Origin: Desulfobulbaceae bacterium
GTDB taxonomy: Bacteria; Desulfobacterota; Desulfobulbia; Desulfobulbales; VMSU01
DNA: 43,328 nt
Assembly (NCBI GenBank): GCA_013792005.1
Contig: VMSU01000230.1
Location: 1 to 43,328, forward strand
Direction of reading: 5' to 3'
The position numbers and the translations under genes were made by a program. Each line of letters begins with the position of its first letter. Within the stretch, counting starts at the first letter, position 1. The notes beneath the pieces were generated by a model, which saw only the letters and a list, made by a program, of their open reading frames with translations, searched no databases and was not told the origin of the DNA. Below are positions 37,801 through 43,117 of this stretch, piece after piece.

Positions 37801-38855
37801 TCCCTGCTGGTGTCTATGCAACACTCGTGGTGGCTGATACTGGTCATGGAATTGAGCAAGAAGTGATGAGTCGAATTTTTGAGCCCTATTTTACTACCAA
37901 AAAAATGGGGGAAGGGACGGGCCTTGGGCTTGCCACGGTACATGGCATTGTCAAAAGTCATGGCGGTTACATTGCCGTTGACAGTGAGATTGGAACGGGC
38001 AGTACTTTTACAATCTATTTACCTATTAGTAATCAAGTGGTAGCGGCAGGCTCTCGAGGAGAGGTTAAACCAATGAAGATTACCGAGCCAATTAAGGCCA
38101 ATATTTTGTTTGTTGATGATATTGATCTTAATATTAAACTGGGGGTGCGACTTCTTTCTAAAATTGGATGCCAGGTCACTGGAGAGATAGATAGCGAGAG
38201 TGCCCTGGCTCTTTTTGCTGCCGATCCAATGCGATTTGATCTGGTGGTTACTGATCAGACTATGCCAAAATTGTCCGGAATTGAGTTGGCTGAAAAAATG
38301 ATAGCGATTCGTCCGGATATTCCAGTAATTATGTTGACTGGACATAGCGATAGTGTTGATGAGGAGAAGGCAAAGGCGGTCGGGATTCGTGAGTTTATAC
38401 ATAAACCGCTGGTGAACGATAATTTTTTATTGATTGTCAGTAGAATGCTGCGGAAAACCGATCAGGAATTGCCCTCAGTTGCACCGCCAACAGTTGAGCA
38501 GTTTAATAGGCGCAGTACGGATATGGCACGGGCGCCGGCAAGTCTTGGTTTCATCACGGCGCATCTGGTTTCCACGTATGGGGTGAGCGCTGAGCAACTC
38601 GACCCTATGGTGAGCGGTCTGCAAGAGACATTACGAACACAAGTCGATCAAATGAAAATTGCTGCGAGGAGTAGTGATTTGAAGACGTTAGCCCTGGTTG
38701 CCCACGGCATCAAAGGAGTCCTTTTGAATGTCGGTCTGACCGCATGGGCCGAACTGGCTAGATCCATTGAAACCGATGCCAAGAGCGATGAACAGAAACA
38801 GTATGATGGCATTGTTGACCAATTAATCATGGGTCTTTCTCCGATACTTAATTGA
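34860..38855 (+). CDS. Hybrid sensor histidine kinase: GAF-GAF-PAS-PAS-HisKA-HATPase-REC-HPt
   Basis: This 1331-residue membrane kinase has two membrane helices (~18-36 and ~193-210) bracketing a ~155-residue periplasmic helical region. In the cytoplasm follow two GAF-like domains (~235-395 and ~415-565), two PAS domains (~575-690 and ~700-815) with PAC ends such as GYRGINRDITVKK, a HisKA with H840 in GGIAHDFNNLLNVI, and the GHKL ATPase (DTGHGI, GTGLGLATVHGIV). A receiver has D1132 in VVTDQTMPKLSG, and a C-terminal HPt has H1282 in VAHGIKGVLLNVG. The four-step His-Asp-His layout can send phosphate to other receivers. It is translationally coupled to cheR by an 8-nt overlap. Its signal is unknown. 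Confidence 0.93.
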   Translation: MSEMLWDRFKRSYSAYSYWLLVIYSLGIILSLGLAFRLEQTVVGRNLLLAAKLERIGGEILSVQLRFDEFLDGDHGDMQPDVHQSMWQHLDRAQKDILIMSGGFGKTGTQNTSDAGATGWQQLFVELQTRMTAWRQVITQLTKIVHGSDVDHQLHAQIHKLSWGVNEQLSELKSYQQTLAAAQIWQLRIVQNVLLAISLGLIVFVVVSYRRLIGAQLIETQTSQAQLQRRMAEMVTLNALGRLSNLKTSPQLFATNALHEITTLVSSDVAAIYLRYDEALSLLAMHHFHIIEQEVMMPEYKAVGQCLCGLAAEGQLVYSDDIHADARCTLSECKDAGLHSFAALPLVSGDRVIGVLGLGFKEKQDLASQLVLLKSVADQLASGLQSRILDDLSQRQSKKMEEQIKLLSLGAEVNAALTRNVAFREMLDACCSLLVAHLGAAFARIWVMRADEGMLELQASAGMYTRIDGASRFKPVDSKNKIGAIACAKQPYFSNQLIGDPQIVDQDWVKREKMVAFAGHPLMLAGKVIGVMALFSQHPLSSMILRTLGSIADSISLAIDNKQAVCRLESSHEQYRDLIENISDWIWIVDDKGTLIFSSPQVGQLLGYEADEIIGRTLFSLLDESEVEKVREIFDDIIASKQPFLGLECVVRHHEGHGIIVETSGSPIFDEHGDLTGYRGINRDITVKKAIENEMLEQKRVLEAMFNAVPDAMIYANFEHLTQMTNDGFLKLFGYTNKEMQGRDISLIYDHVDELSQQGIIPFVPPGQQPSSPAEINFKRKDGVVFPGEVVSATIRNIDGEAAGFLYLVRDITQRKQAEEHQHHIQKMEALGTLSGGIAHDFNNLLNVIHGYTSLTLGDLDQEGLLAQNLQEVLKASERAAALVRQILAFSKGVEEGMKPLFLHHITKEVVKLLAGTFPVTIEIKQSIDTKCRPVMADASQIHQVLMNLCTNSYHAMRDTGGVLEVRLSEEEIGQDTIPEVPAGVYATLVVADTGHGIEQEVMSRIFEPYFTTKKMGEGTGLGLATVHGIVKSHGGYIAVDSEIGTGSTFTIYLPISNQVVAAGSRGEVKPMKITEPIKANILFVDDIDLNIKLGVRLLSKIGCQVTGEIDSESALALFAADPMRFDLVVTDQTMPKLSGIELAEKMIAIRPDIPVIMLTGHSDSVDEEKAKAVGIREFIHKPLVNDNFLLIVSRMLRKTDQELPSVAPPTVEQFNRRSTDMARAPASLGFITAHLVSTYGVSAEQLDPMVSGLQETLRTQVDQMKIAARSSDLKTLALVAHGIKGVLLNVGLTAWAELARSIETDAKSDEQKQYDGIVDQLIMGLSPILN

Positions 38856-38913
38856 TCAGCTCGTCCTTGGTCTCTCCTTAGAGTGGCCGTTGATTCATCC
38901 TCTGATAAATATC

Positions 38914-38943
38914 TTGACAGGTTGGTCAACCGTTTTTTATAGT
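38914..38943 (+). promoter_or_regulatory. Strong sigma-70-type promoter for the TerC-family gene
   Basis: A perfect TTGACA (38914-38919) is followed after 18 bp by TATAGT (38938-38943). It lies 59 bp after the hybrid-kinase stop and would start transcription near 38950, giving a leader of about 245 nt before the ATG at 39196. Confidence 0.65.
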
Positions 38944-38949
38944 CTTTTT

Positions 38950-39050
38950 CCTATAGGTGAGAGTCACGATCGACCACCTGTTAGGCCTCGACCCCAGCTC
39001 CTCATGCCGGTTGAGAGCCTTGGGCCAGGGGCGAGAAATTTGCGCTTAAG
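38950..39050 (+). promoter_or_regulatory. Structured terC leader, possible riboswitch aptamer
   Basis: Between promoter and terminator the RNA can form several stems: AGGTG/CACCT (around 38955-38979) and GGCCTCGAC with GTTGAGAGCC (about 38982-39019). The leader ends CTTAAGACCTTT. TerC-family genes are known hosts of the Mn2+-sensing yybP-ykoY riboswitch, whose 3' end also has AAGACCUU. The expected 5' GGGGAGUA element is not clearly present, so the family is not established. Confidence 0.35.
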
Positions 39051-39094
39051 ACCTTTATCCAGGCTACTATGCCGGGGGGTAAAGGTTTTTTTTT
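39051..39094 (+). terminator. Intrinsic terminator/attenuator in the terC leader
   Basis: ACCTTTATCC (39051-39060) pairs with GGGTAAAGGT (39077-39086, one G-U pair), and an inner GGC/GCC pair tops the stem. A run of nine T residues ends it at 39094. It lies 102 bp before the TerC ATG and ~100 nt after the predicted start site, as expected for an expression platform. It could also serve as the end of transcripts reading through from the chemosensory locus. Confidence 0.8.
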
Positions 39095-39195
39095 GTCTTT
39101 GGCCAAGGCTGCCTTTGCAGATAATTGGAGGCAGTCGCTTTCGGCATGAGAAGATAGTTTTCACTAACTGTAGTGAACCAAAAGGAGAGAACAGC

Positions 39196-39969
39196 ATGGA
39201 TTGGTTGACTGACCCGCAGGTCTGGATGGCTTTGGTGACCCTGACCGCCCTGGAGATCGTCCTCGGCATTGATAATATCATTTTTATCTCAATTCAGGCG
39301 GGCAAACTGCCCGCTGAAGAGCAAGAGAAGGCCAGGTTGATTGGTCTCGGGTTGGCGATGTTTGTCCGGGTGGCCCTGCTGTTCTCACTCTCCTGGCTGA
39401 TGGGGCTTACCAAGCCGTTGTTTACTCTGCTCGCTAATGAGATCTCCGGGCGTGACCTGATCCTGCTTTCAGGGGGGATGTTTCTGCTGTGGAAGAGTAC
39501 CATGGAAATCCATGAGAAGCTTGAGGGGGAAAATGGTCAGGTGTCGTTTGGTAAAGTAGGAGTGACTTTTTCTTCGGTTATCGTTCAGATCCTCCTGTTG
39601 GATATCGTCTTTTCTCTTGATTCCATCATTACGGCCTTGGGGATGGCCAACCAGCTCAGTGTCATGGTTGCCGCAGTCGTTATCGCTGTTTTTTTCATGA
39701 TGCTCTTTGCGGGGAAAATCAGCGTCTTTGTCGAAAAACATCCGACCATCAAGATGCTGGCGTTGAGCTTTTTACTGTTAATTGGTGTGGCGCTGATTGG
39801 AGATGGACTCGATATGCATATCCCCAAGGGGTACATCTATTTCGCCATGGCCTTCTCGGTGATGGTTGAGATGCTTAATCTGCGCATGCGTGGCGGCACA
39901 CCGGTCAAACTCCATCAACCCTATTTGGAAAATTCAAGCACAGAAGCCCACAGCGGGGGGGAAAGGTAA
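39196..39969 (+). CDS. TerC-family integral membrane protein
   Basis: The 257-residue protein has about seven membrane helices. Family signatures are ALEIVLGIDNIIFISI near the N-terminus and ILLLDIVFSLDSIITALG in the middle, whose acidic residues within the membrane are thought to handle metal ions. Members such as Alx and YkoY are linked to Mn2+ efflux or loading of exported metalloproteins, and some to tellurite resistance. The ATG at 39196 has AAAGGAGAG upstream, a strong ribosome-binding site. Upstream in-frame codons would translate the terminator and are excluded. The last 65 bp overlap the oppositely oriented M48 protease gene. Confidence 0.93.
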   Translation: MDWLTDPQVWMALVTLTALEIVLGIDNIIFISIQAGKLPAEEQEKARLIGLGLAMFVRVALLFSLSWLMGLTKPLFTLLANEISGRDLILLSGGMFLLWKSTMEIHEKLEGENGQVSFGKVGVTFSSVIVQILLLDIVFSLDSIITALGMANQLSVMVAAVVIAVFFMMLFAGKISVFVEKHPTIKMLALSFLLLIGVALIGDGLDMHIPKGYIYFAMAFSVMVEMLNLRMRGGTPVKLHQPYLENSSTEAHSGGER

Positions 39970-40800: not shown

Positions 40801-41205
40801 CTAAAAGAAATCGTTGTCAAGAATCAGTGAGGAGAGCGAGATCATGCCGACAATCTTTCCTTCCTCTTCAACCGGGGCCTGCCGGATGCCGGCCCGGTAA
40901 ATCAGGCGGGCCACATATCGGATATCCATGTCCGCCGGCACGGTGATTATCGGTTTGGTCATGATTTCATAGACATTCACCTCGCTGGGAGAGCGGTCCG
41001 GAATGATCACCCCTTTCACAAAGTCCTGAACGACCACAATCCCCCAAGCATCATCGGTATGCCGTTTTTTGATCAGCAGAGATGAGATTTTTTCAGCGCG
41101 CATCTTGGCGGCAGCTTCCCTTGCTGTGGCCATGCCGTCAATGGAGATAACGTTTTTGTGCATCACGTCTCGTGCCCGGATGATTTTTGTGCTGACAGTT
41201 CCCAT
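40801..41205 (-). CDS. CBS-domain pair protein
   Basis: The 134-residue protein consists of two CBS motifs: VMHKNVISIDGMATAREAAAKMRAEKISSLLI then WGIVVVQDFVK, and IMTKPIITVPADMDIRYVARLIYRAGIRQAPVEEEGKIVGMISLSSLI. Paired CBS motifs form a Bateman module that binds adenine nucleotides (AMP, ATP, c-di-AMP or NAD relatives, varying by protein). No enzymatic domain is attached, so it should act by binding a partner. GAGGAAG precedes the ATG at 41205. It lies 29 bp after the PII-like gene, so both may regulate the DUF1538 membrane proteins encoded upstream. Confidence 0.93.
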   Translation of the reverse strand: MGTVSTKIIRARDVMHKNVISIDGMATAREAAAKMRAEKISSLLIKKRHTDDAWGIVVVQDFVKGVIIPDRSPSEVNVYEIMTKPIITVPADMDIRYVARLIYRAGIRQAPVEEEGKIVGMISLSSLILDNDFF

Positions 41206-41234
41206 AATATTCTTCCTCTAGAAAATGTGGCTTA

Positions 41235-41582
41235 TTAAAAGTAACTTTCCCTGACTTCTTCTTTAAATTTTTCCATCTGGCTTTCAAGGCCTACCACATG
41301 TTCGACAGGGAGTACAAAGGCGATGCCGGTGCCGGGTTTGTGGAATTGCCCCGCCTCTCTGATCGTGTCGAGGACTTTTGTTACCAGATGTTCTTCGAGA
41401 AGAAACATAATGATATCGGTCTGTGCCTCCAGTGAGAGGCCAAAAAAGGTCTTCGCCTCTCTAATACCGGTACCCCTGGCCGGTATGATTGTTGCCCCTG
41501 TGGCTCCAGCTCCTTTAGCCGCATCAACAATACTATCTGTGATGTCAGGCTTGACTGAGGATAGGATGAGTTTAAAGCGCAT
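41235..41582 (-). CDS. PII-superfamily signalling protein with short T-loop
   Basis: The 115-residue protein has the PII ferredoxin-like fold pattern: MRFKLILSSVKPDITDSIVDAAKGAGATGATIIPARGTG, DIIMFLLEEHLVTKVLDTIREAG, and a B-loop-like GQFHKPGTGIAFVLPVEHVVGL. The T-loop is much shorter than in GlnB/GlnK and lacks the uridylylated YRGAEY tyrosine segment, so it is not a normal nitrogen-control PII. PII-like proteins bind nucleotides and usually regulate a neighbouring membrane transporter. Here two DUF1538 membrane proteins precede it and a CBS protein follows. GGAG lies 7 nt before the ATG at 41582, and the gap from the DUF1538 gene is 16 bp. Confidence 0.85.
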   Translation of the reverse strand: MRFKLILSSVKPDITDSIVDAAKGAGATGATIIPARGTGIREAKTFFGLSLEAQTDIIMFLLEEHLVTKVLDTIREAGQFHKPGTGIAFVLPVEHVVGLESQMEKFKEEVRESYF

Positions 41583-41598
41583 TTCTTTTCTCCGTGGA

Positions 41599-42366
41599 TT
41601 ATTTTTTTCGTTGACTGAGCCAGTGCATCAGTTGGGCGTAGCCCATGACGGTTATGATTGGACAAAGACTGGCAAAGGCAATAAGGCCAAAGCCGTCGAG
41701 GGCGGGATTTCGTCCTGGAACAGTGGCGGACAACCCTAGGCCAAGAGCAGCTACCAAGGGGACCGTGACTGTTGAGGTGGTGACTCCACCTGAATCGTAG
41801 GCTAAGGGGATGATGCTTTTGGGGGCAAAGAGGGTCTGGAAAATGACAATCATATAGCCGACCAGGATGTAGAGATAGAGTGGGGTGCCGGTGACAATTC
41901 GAAAAGTGCCTAAGCTGATGCCAAAGGCGACTCCAACTGCCACGGTGATTCTTAAACCCCACTGGCTGATGGTCCCGGCAGAAACTTCGTTTGCTTTAAA
42001 GGCTACAGCAATGAGAGAGGGTTCGGCGATGGTGGTGGCAAAGCCGATCATGGCGGCAAAGAGGTAGATCCAGCCGTATGCCTTCCAGTCGGCTTCTAAA
42101 ACAATGGTGTTTGCGCCATAGATAAAGGCGGGATCGGAGAGTTGGGCTGCCATGATCTTGCCGAGTGGGAAAAGCGCCTTTTCGAGTCCTGCCAGAAACA
42201 GCGCCAGGCCGAGGACAACATATACTCCACCGACAACAAGACGGCGCAGATGGGGGATGGGTTGGCGCAATACCAGAAGCTGAAACCCGGTGATCAGAAC
42301 GATGATCGGCAGCACATCCCTGCAGGTGGCAAGCAGTATTATGCTGAAATCTTGTATGAATTCCAC
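41599..42366 (-). CDS. DUF1538-family membrane protein (second copy)
   Basis: The 255-residue protein has about seven membrane helices. It shares the block [40 protein letters not shown] and MGYAQLMHWL with the adjacent gene at 42383, so the two are tandem paralogues. The family (DUF1538) has no settled function known to me. Conserved small and polar residues inside helices (GGVTTSTxTVP) resemble ion-binding segments in transporters, which suggests, without proving, an ion or small-solute transporter made of two related subunits. The start is a GTG at 42366 with GAGG about 8 nt upstream, 16 bp after the other paralogue. Confidence 0.88.
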   Translation of the reverse strand: MEFIQDFSIILLATCRDVLPIIVLITGFQLLVLRQPIPHLRRLVVGGVYVVLGLALFLAGLEKALFPLGKIMAAQLSDPAFIYGANTIVLEADWKAYGWIYLFAAMIGFATTIAEPSLIAVAFKANEVSAGTISQWGLRITVAVGVAFGISLGTFRIVTGTPLYLYILVGYMIVIFQTLFAPKSIIPLAYDSGGVTTSTVTVPLVAALGLGLSATVPGRNPALDGFGLIAFASLCPIITVMGYAQLMHWLSQRKK

Positions 42367-42382
42367 AGCAAGAGCCTCTTTT

Positions 42383-43117
42383 TTAGCCGAAAATTATGAG
42401 TCCGTACCCCATGACGAAGATCATCGGGAGCAGAGACGCGAAGGCGATCAGGCCAAAGCCGTCCAACAGAGGGCTCCGTCCGCGAATGGTTGAAGCCAGC
42501 CCTACTCCCAGCGCTGCCACCAGTGGTACGGTGATGGTGGAGGTGGTGACTCCGCCGGCATCGTAAGCGATGCCGATGATCTCTTGCGGGGCAATGGTGG
42601 TCATCAGCATGACGAGAGCATAACCGCTGATGATCAAATAATGAATGGGCCAGCCGCGAATGATCCGCATCACACCGAGGAGGATGGCCAGCCCTACCGA
42701 AAAGGCGACTGACATGCGAAGGCCAAAGGCGTACTGGTTCATTGTCTCCTGGCCTGGATCGATAAGCCCGCCCTCGCTGGCAATTTTTGCTGCTTCGGCA
42801 GCGACAGCGATGAGGGCTGGCTCGGCGACAGTGGTTGAGAACCCGAGGGCAAAGGCGAAGCTGAGGAGCCAGAAGAGGCTGCCCTTTCTGGCCAGGGCGT
42901 GGGCCATTGCCTCACCGATGGGAAAGAGACCCATCTCAAGCCCTTGGACAAAGAGGGTAAGGCCGAGCACTACCAGAAGGGCGCCAAAAAGCACTTCGCC
43001 CATTTGCGGCAGCGGTTGTTTCAAGACGATAATCTGAAAAAAGGCGATAACCAGGACAATGGGCAGCAGATCCGCGCAGGCCTGCTTGAGTTTATTGAAA
43101 ATGAAGGAGGTAATCAT
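42383..43117 (-). CDS. DUF1538-family membrane protein (first copy)
   Basis: The 244-residue protein is polytopic, with about seven helices. [19 protein letters not shown] and [51 protein letters not shown] match the downstream copy. It is first in the five-gene leftward set (DUF1538, DUF1538, PII-like, CBS, M48). AGGAAG lies just before the ATG at 43117. A paired-subunit transporter controlled by a PII-like and a CBS protein is the simplest reading of the order, but no substrate can be named. Confidence 0.88.

Follow-up and report, generated by a model that had tools for sequence, protein, structure and literature searches.

A leader upstream of terC in a Desulfobulbaceae bacterium is probably a decayed yybP-ykoY riboswitch that has kept its terminator

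Background

The closest described systems to the leader considered here are the yybP-ykoY riboswitches (RF00080) of Geobacter-type genomes, which precede terC or an M48 protease-terC pair, and the E. coli alx leader (PRE element), which belongs to the same family and likewise precedes a TerC-family gene. In addition, the terC RNA motif, a candidate for a structured RNA, precedes terC; it has this position in common with our leader, the likeness between the two being compared through the Rfam search only. The literature searched contained no paper dedicated to that motif and no description of the present leader.

In working yybP-ykoY members, as PMC6754395 and PMC11087558 describe, Mn2+ docks loop L1 onto loop L3, stabilises the helix P1.1 and prevents formation of the terminator. 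The A of the L3 UCA is invariant and contacts Mn2+ in solved structures, and UCA is the sequence found in L. lactis, according to PMC6754395. As regards the gene, PMC13274385 describes TerC as a Mn exporter placed under a yybP-ykoY riboswitch in another bacterium.

The window analysed here is a stretch of 43,328 nucleotides (contig VMSU01000230.1, positions 1 to 43,328) from a Desulfobulbaceae bacterium, in which terC follows a promoter, a leader and a terminator. We propose that this leader is probably a decayed yybP-ykoY (Mn2+) riboswitch of which the terminator remains, and most likely a relic rather than a new kind of switch.

Results and discussion

Transcription and translation signals at the terC locus

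The terC gene (39196–39969, + strand) encodes an intact TerC-family membrane protein of 257 aa (Pfam PF03741, E 1.1e-44), and the signals that a preliminary description had pointed out in front of this TerC-family gene are all in place. Indeed, a sigma-70-type promoter is found at 38914–38943 (+ strand), with the −35 box TTGACA at 38914–38919 followed after 18 nt by TATAGT at 38938–38943, i.e., 11 of the 12 consensus positions, and a TTGACA-type promoter occupies the equivalent place before the aptamer in most canonical relatives. Note that promoter-like sites show no excess over the region as a whole (3, versus a mean of 2.4 in shuffles). The intrinsic terminator (39048–39094, + strand) is an inverted repeat with arms at 39048–39060 and 39077–39089 and a run of nine Ts at 39086–39094, and its folding energy is −17.6 kcal/mol, versus a mean of −19.3 kcal/mol in 35 canonical relatives; a simple terminator scan did not list it because its loop exceeds the length which that scan permits. 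A spacer of ~100 nt lies between the end of the terminator (39094) and the good ribosome-binding site AAAAGGAGAG (39180–39189, + strand), which is followed by the terC ATG at 39196.

Between the terminator and the ribosome-binding site, we also noticed a perfect dyad, TTCACTA-ACTG-TAGTGAA (39160–39177), as a possible candidate for an operator or a hairpin. The genome contains a single exact copy of it, together with 3 further places that each carry 2 mismatches, and since these copies are no commoner than those of a control pattern (whose matches outnumber those of the dyad in the genome scan), no regulon is seen. Upstream, a kinase gene on the same strand as terC ends at 38855. A plain constitutive attenuator, with terC controlled at the 7-bp dyad or through read-through from the kinase gene, would find a place for both features, but no dyad regulon accompanies it and the descent of the leader from yybP-ykoY (see below) would be left unexplained, so that we consider it very unlikely.

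Origin of terC

The TerC protein of the window is 79–83% identical to the first eight of the nearest TerC loci listed, and the nearest proteins belong mostly to records named Geobacteraceae or Desulfuromonadaceae. In a tree comprising the window and 31 selected TerC loci, it nests with 100/99 support in a 10-row clade made up mostly of these two families, and terC was found in none of the 9 genomes of the same genus and family. This placement, combined with the canonical riboswitch copies present at 7 of the 12 nearest loci, points to a probable horizontal transfer of both terC and its leader. Misbinning of the contig is unlikely, since the PII-CBS-DUF1538 genes adjoining terC have collinear counterparts with 81–90% identity in G004, a genome of the same family where terC was not found. 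These neighbours (CBS, P-II-like and two DUF1538-like membrane proteins) form a cluster at 40804–43117 (− strand) which is conserved and collinear in both G004 and G011.

The gene itself is under strong purifying selection, with dN/dS values of 0.046–0.089 in 8/10 comparisons with finite dS. The dS values to the closest terC genes are near-saturated (1.5–2.8 where finite, and infinite for L061 and L062).

Descent of the leader from yybP-ykoY

The leader DNA was searched by blastn in 244 genomes belonging to the same class as G257, by inference Desulfuromonadia (G257 is the Geobacteraceae-titled genome that contains L057), and matches were obtained in 69 of them at E up to 0.01. Most of these matches span the AAGACC-terminator part alone (query 105–150), while the best ones cover query positions 49–150 or 65–150 with 73–80% identity and fall within canonical yybP-ykoY leaders. 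The top match, to canonical leaders of Geobacter type, displays 77% identity over 102 nt (query 49–150) with an E-value of 6.4e-13; query positions 1–48 are reached by no strong match. The motif pattern with a gap of 66–96 is present in 122 of the same 244 genomes, and the DNA upstream of the nearest terC genes carries canonical leaders in which AAAGGGGAGTAGC, CGTCAA and AAGACCTTTATCC precede a terminator. Even when the AAGACC element is left out, global alignment of the leader to 35 canonical copies gives a z-score of 5.0 and beats all of 1000 shuffles, with a score of 53 versus a best score of 45 among 500 random segments of the window.

A covariance model built from the 35 canonical copies (R1) finds its best place in the window at 38948–39062 (23.3 bits, E 0.00058), and in the window's own genome the same place is the sole one at E ≤ 1 (E 0.054); under stricter filters, the leader match was not returned. 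As a control, R1 scores the E. coli alx leader at 31.4 bits and the copies from Geobacter-type genomes and from the window's own class at 85–119 bits. Across 100 loci searched with R1, a canonical copy was identified at 7 of the 12 most similar ones (L054–L065; note that L054 comprises 244 nt upstream of terC only, so that the absence of a leader there carries no weight), two of the seven having a M48 protease gene between leader and terC. No canonical copy was found in the other 53 genome_contigs TerC loci or in the 29 loci from relatives of the window.

An ordinary leader resembling yybP-ykoY by chance, in AAGACCTTT and the terminator only, would agree with the R1 E-value varying with search size (0.00058, 0.0055, 0.0019 and 0.054) and with the loss of this match under stricter filters. 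However, it is contradicted by the blastn E-value of 6e-13 over 102 nt, by the z-score that persists without the AAGACC element and by the same location before an orthologous gene, which together make a coincidence extremely improbable. We therefore regard it as settled, on the basis of these sequence comparisons, that the leader descends from yybP-ykoY (Mn2+ riboswitch) leaders. The link to this family made in the preliminary description thus holds for ancestry (blastn, 23.3 bits with R1, canonical copies at 7 of 12 loci), but not for a working Mn2+ switch, as the L1 strand is lost and the canonical fold disfavoured.

That description had also proposed an RF00080 search as a check. Using the RF00080 model (177 positions, cut-off of 45 bits), no match was found at the leader: Rfam returned nothing over the whole window at the gathering threshold, no family matched 38800–39300 at E up to 10, and RF00080 found three weak places in the window's own genome, none of them at the leader. 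However, this negative result is of little weight because E. coli alx likewise escaped the search at E up to 10, as did 5 canonical Geobacter-type leaders. Negative Rfam results for the yybP-ykoY family should consequently not be trusted without such a control.

In the window's own class (257 genomes), blastn of the leader gave a convincing E-value for the window alone, the next-best match (E 0.0025 over 30 nt) being at chance level, and inspection of the 330 nt upstream of terC in 30 loci from the same order revealed no similar leader.

Retained and altered elements

Compared to the Geobacter-type copies, the window shares the promoter-aptamer-terminator layout, the position before TerC and 77% nucleotide identity over the 3′ two thirds of the leader. 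The L3 UCA is retained at 39002–39004, where it aligns with the UCA of the relatives. At 39048–39057 (+ strand), AAGA (L1 3′ strand) and ACCUUUA (P1.1 3′ strand) are identical to most canonical relatives and also belong to the terminator 5′ arm; the family sequence (A/G)AGACCU is thus present as AAGACCUUUAUCC, and AAGACCTTT at 39048–39056 corresponds to the 3′ sequence that had been noticed from the start as fitting the family. As in the Geobacter-type copies, AAGACCUUUAUCC serves both as P1.1 3′ strand and as terminator 5′ arm (39051–39057), which makes P1.1 and the terminator mutually exclusive. The P1.1 5′ strand (UAUAGGU, 38952–38958, + strand) forms 6 of 7 pairs with 39051–39057, and P1.2 pairs in part.

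In contrast, the 5′ part of the aptamer is rewritten. In an alignment (A4) of the window and 40 other members, E. coli alx included, the L1 5′ strand GGGAGUA is present in all 40 other rows (GGGGAGUA in 39 of them) and absent in the window, which reads UAUAGGUGAGAGUCACG at this place. The missing 5′ hallmark was likewise noted at the outset, and the family hallmark GGGGAGUA(G) is indeed lacking. The altered L1/P1.2 5′ strand is GAGAGUCACGA (38959–38969, + strand), where the relatives have GGAGUAG(C/U)..; put differently, the Geobacter-type L1 5′ strand GGGGAGUAG faces GGUGAGAGUCAC in the window. Further downstream, the window differs from these copies by a CC insertion in P2, of which a remnant (38970–38991, + strand; UCGACC / GG-CC-UCGA) is recognised by a pairing check and by sequence-only alignment to L169, and by a mispaired P1.2; the alignments also place a remnant of the P3.1/P3.2 leg, with L3, at 38992–39031 (+ strand). 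The E. coli alx leader, unlike the window, retains AAAGGGGAGUA, CGUCA and GAGACCUU.

By eye, the altered L1 strand holds a perfect mini-hairpin, GUGA-GAG-UCAC (38958–38968), which is possibly a template-switch scar.

Predicted folding of the leader

The minimum-free-energy fold of the leader is dominated by a competing helix of 11 bp (AGGCCUCGACC at 38983–38993 with GGUUGAG-A-GCCU at 39009–39020, + strand), which is mutually exclusive with P2 and P3. Enforcing the canonical junction legs costs 16.8 kcal/mol over the minimum free energy in the window, whereas the 35 canonical copies require 0.4 kcal/mol on average and at most 3.2 kcal/mol. In a wider set of 40 members including E. coli alx, which folds canonically at a cost of 0.9 kcal/mol, the window requires 17.6 kcal/mol while the members need 1.0 kcal/mol on average and at most 8.9 kcal/mol; the costs of L197–L199 (8.9) and L194 (6.3) could reflect faulty alignment, but the mean includes them. 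The cost remains at 12–19 kcal/mol at 20, 37 and 50 °C and with the minimal core alone enforced, in a thermodynamic folding which disregards Mg2+/Mn2+ and co-transcriptional order. Since two defining yybP-ykoY features, namely the L1 5′ strand hallmark and, in the predicted fold, the canonical structure, are absent from the window, we do not file the leader as a working member.

A divergent yet working Mn2+ riboswitch, in which the altered L1 (GAGAGUCA) still docks, nevertheless has several features on its side: the L3 UCA with its metal-contacting A, the AAGACCUUUAUCC/AAGACC strand and the switch between P1.1 and the terminator are retained, GAGU keeps its register when aligned with the model, the model-fitted alignment still has 14 standard leg pairs out of 16, and the leader keeps 77% identity although the dS of terC is near-saturated. 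Against this, the L1 5′ strand does not vary among the 40 other members and the canonical legs stay costly from 20 to 50 °C. Moreover, PMC8546581 reports that changing two conserved G residues of the aptamer to A abolished the Mn response/induction in another species. All these results make a preserved Mn2+ switch unlikely.

The fold loss was set against random mutation by mutating three canonical copies to the divergence of the window. The mutated copies displayed mean costs of 14.7–15.6 kcal/mol (sd 5.3–6.2) and kept on average 10.4–11.3 of 16–17 leg pairs, while the window retains 12–13 of 16–17 in four sequence-only alignments. In these folding simulations, both the pair retention and the fold loss of the leader are within the random-mutation range, and the leader looks like a sequence whose fold is no longer under selection.

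The same impression arises from comparison with shuffles. The whole leader plus terminator reaches a z-score of −2.81, but the 100 nt that precede the terminator, taken by themselves, give a z-score of −0.84, with 95 of 500 dinucleotide shuffles folding equally well or better; the leader alone is thus unexceptional, and the excess stability belongs to the terminator. The ~100 nt of foldable RNA singled out in the preliminary description are consequently nothing special once the terminator is removed, and its suggestion of a new or different aptamer finds no backing, as no relative with the same variant appeared in the genomes searched and the leader by itself shows no structure beyond that of shuffles.

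A related possibility is that the yybP-ykoY scaffold, with its Mn2+ core gone, was rebuilt as a rod-like RNA that sets P1.1 against the terminator in response to another signal (e.g., another ion, a protein, RNA polymerase pausing or temperature). An antiterminator would still be possible in such an RNA, since enforcing P1.1 on the rod fold costs 1.5 kcal/mol over the leader minimum (−34.4 versus −35.9), and the promoter, the terminator and the gene are all retained. However, the leader-only z-score is not above shuffles, no second genome with the variant was found among the 257 + 244 genomes searched with the leader DNA, and pair retention and fold loss do not depart from random mutation; we thus find a repurposed leader quite improbable.

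Proposed history of the leader

The decay of a Mn2+ riboswitch, which we favour, would have proceeded as follows. A Geobacteraceae-type terC with its own riboswitch may have entered the lineage, after which the promoter, the terminator and the overlap between P1.1 and terminator would have been retained while loop L1 was rewritten, and the competing helix would have arisen and blocked the four-way junction. Transcription would start at about 38950, and the leader would have lost canonical Mn2+ binding. With the docking loop gone and the AAGACCUUUAUCC strand free in the predicted fold, default termination with leakage is expected; the terminator would then form by default, and terC may be expressed at a low, Mn2+-independent level through terminator leakage or read-through from the upstream kinase gene.

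The rival explanations draw their best argument from the fact that the leader is recognisable at all. Indeed, with dS values of 1.5–2.8, a leader that was unconstrained throughout would be unrecognisable, and its decay should therefore be recent compared to the time at which the sampled relatives split off, or else some constraint is left. The intact L3 UCA and the intact AAGACCUUUAUCC in its full length also count against decay. Note that selection on the leader is not directly measurable, since the variant is known from one genome.

If this decay is confirmed, the locus would be a clear case of a metal riboswitch that, following the transfer of its gene into a new host, was stripped of its sensor but kept its output part, and it would show which of the two halves can be lost first. 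It would also mean that a promoter, a leader and a terminator before terC do not always form a Mn2+ switch.

Related riboswitch copies

In the Geobacter-type genomes, canonical yybP-ykoY copies often precede a gene for a M48 (HtpX-like) protease, which in L055 and L060 is then followed by terC. Such M48 (HtpX-like) loci after yybP-ykoY were located at L055:903–1950, L060:883–1940, L169:1501–2527 and L235:1593–2622, the Pfam M48 domain being confirmed in L055, L169 and L235. A putative Mn2+-controlled protease-TerC operon fits the report, in PMC10246235, that HtpX co-purifies with a B. subtilis TerC protein.

Within the window's own class, four canonical copies were observed before related small membrane-like proteins (L174:272–709, L175:1121–1579, L176:1026–1370 and L180:132–476); the L174 protein, the sole one of the four that was scanned, had no Pfam match. 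Finally, a yybP-ykoY-like element at L234:4091–4189 (− strand), with a canonical L1 and with CCUCAAUC instead of CGUCAAUAC at L3, is located upstream of a BacA/UppP gene and lies 1.6 kb from a second copy, which itself precedes an ORF resembling the M48 ones.
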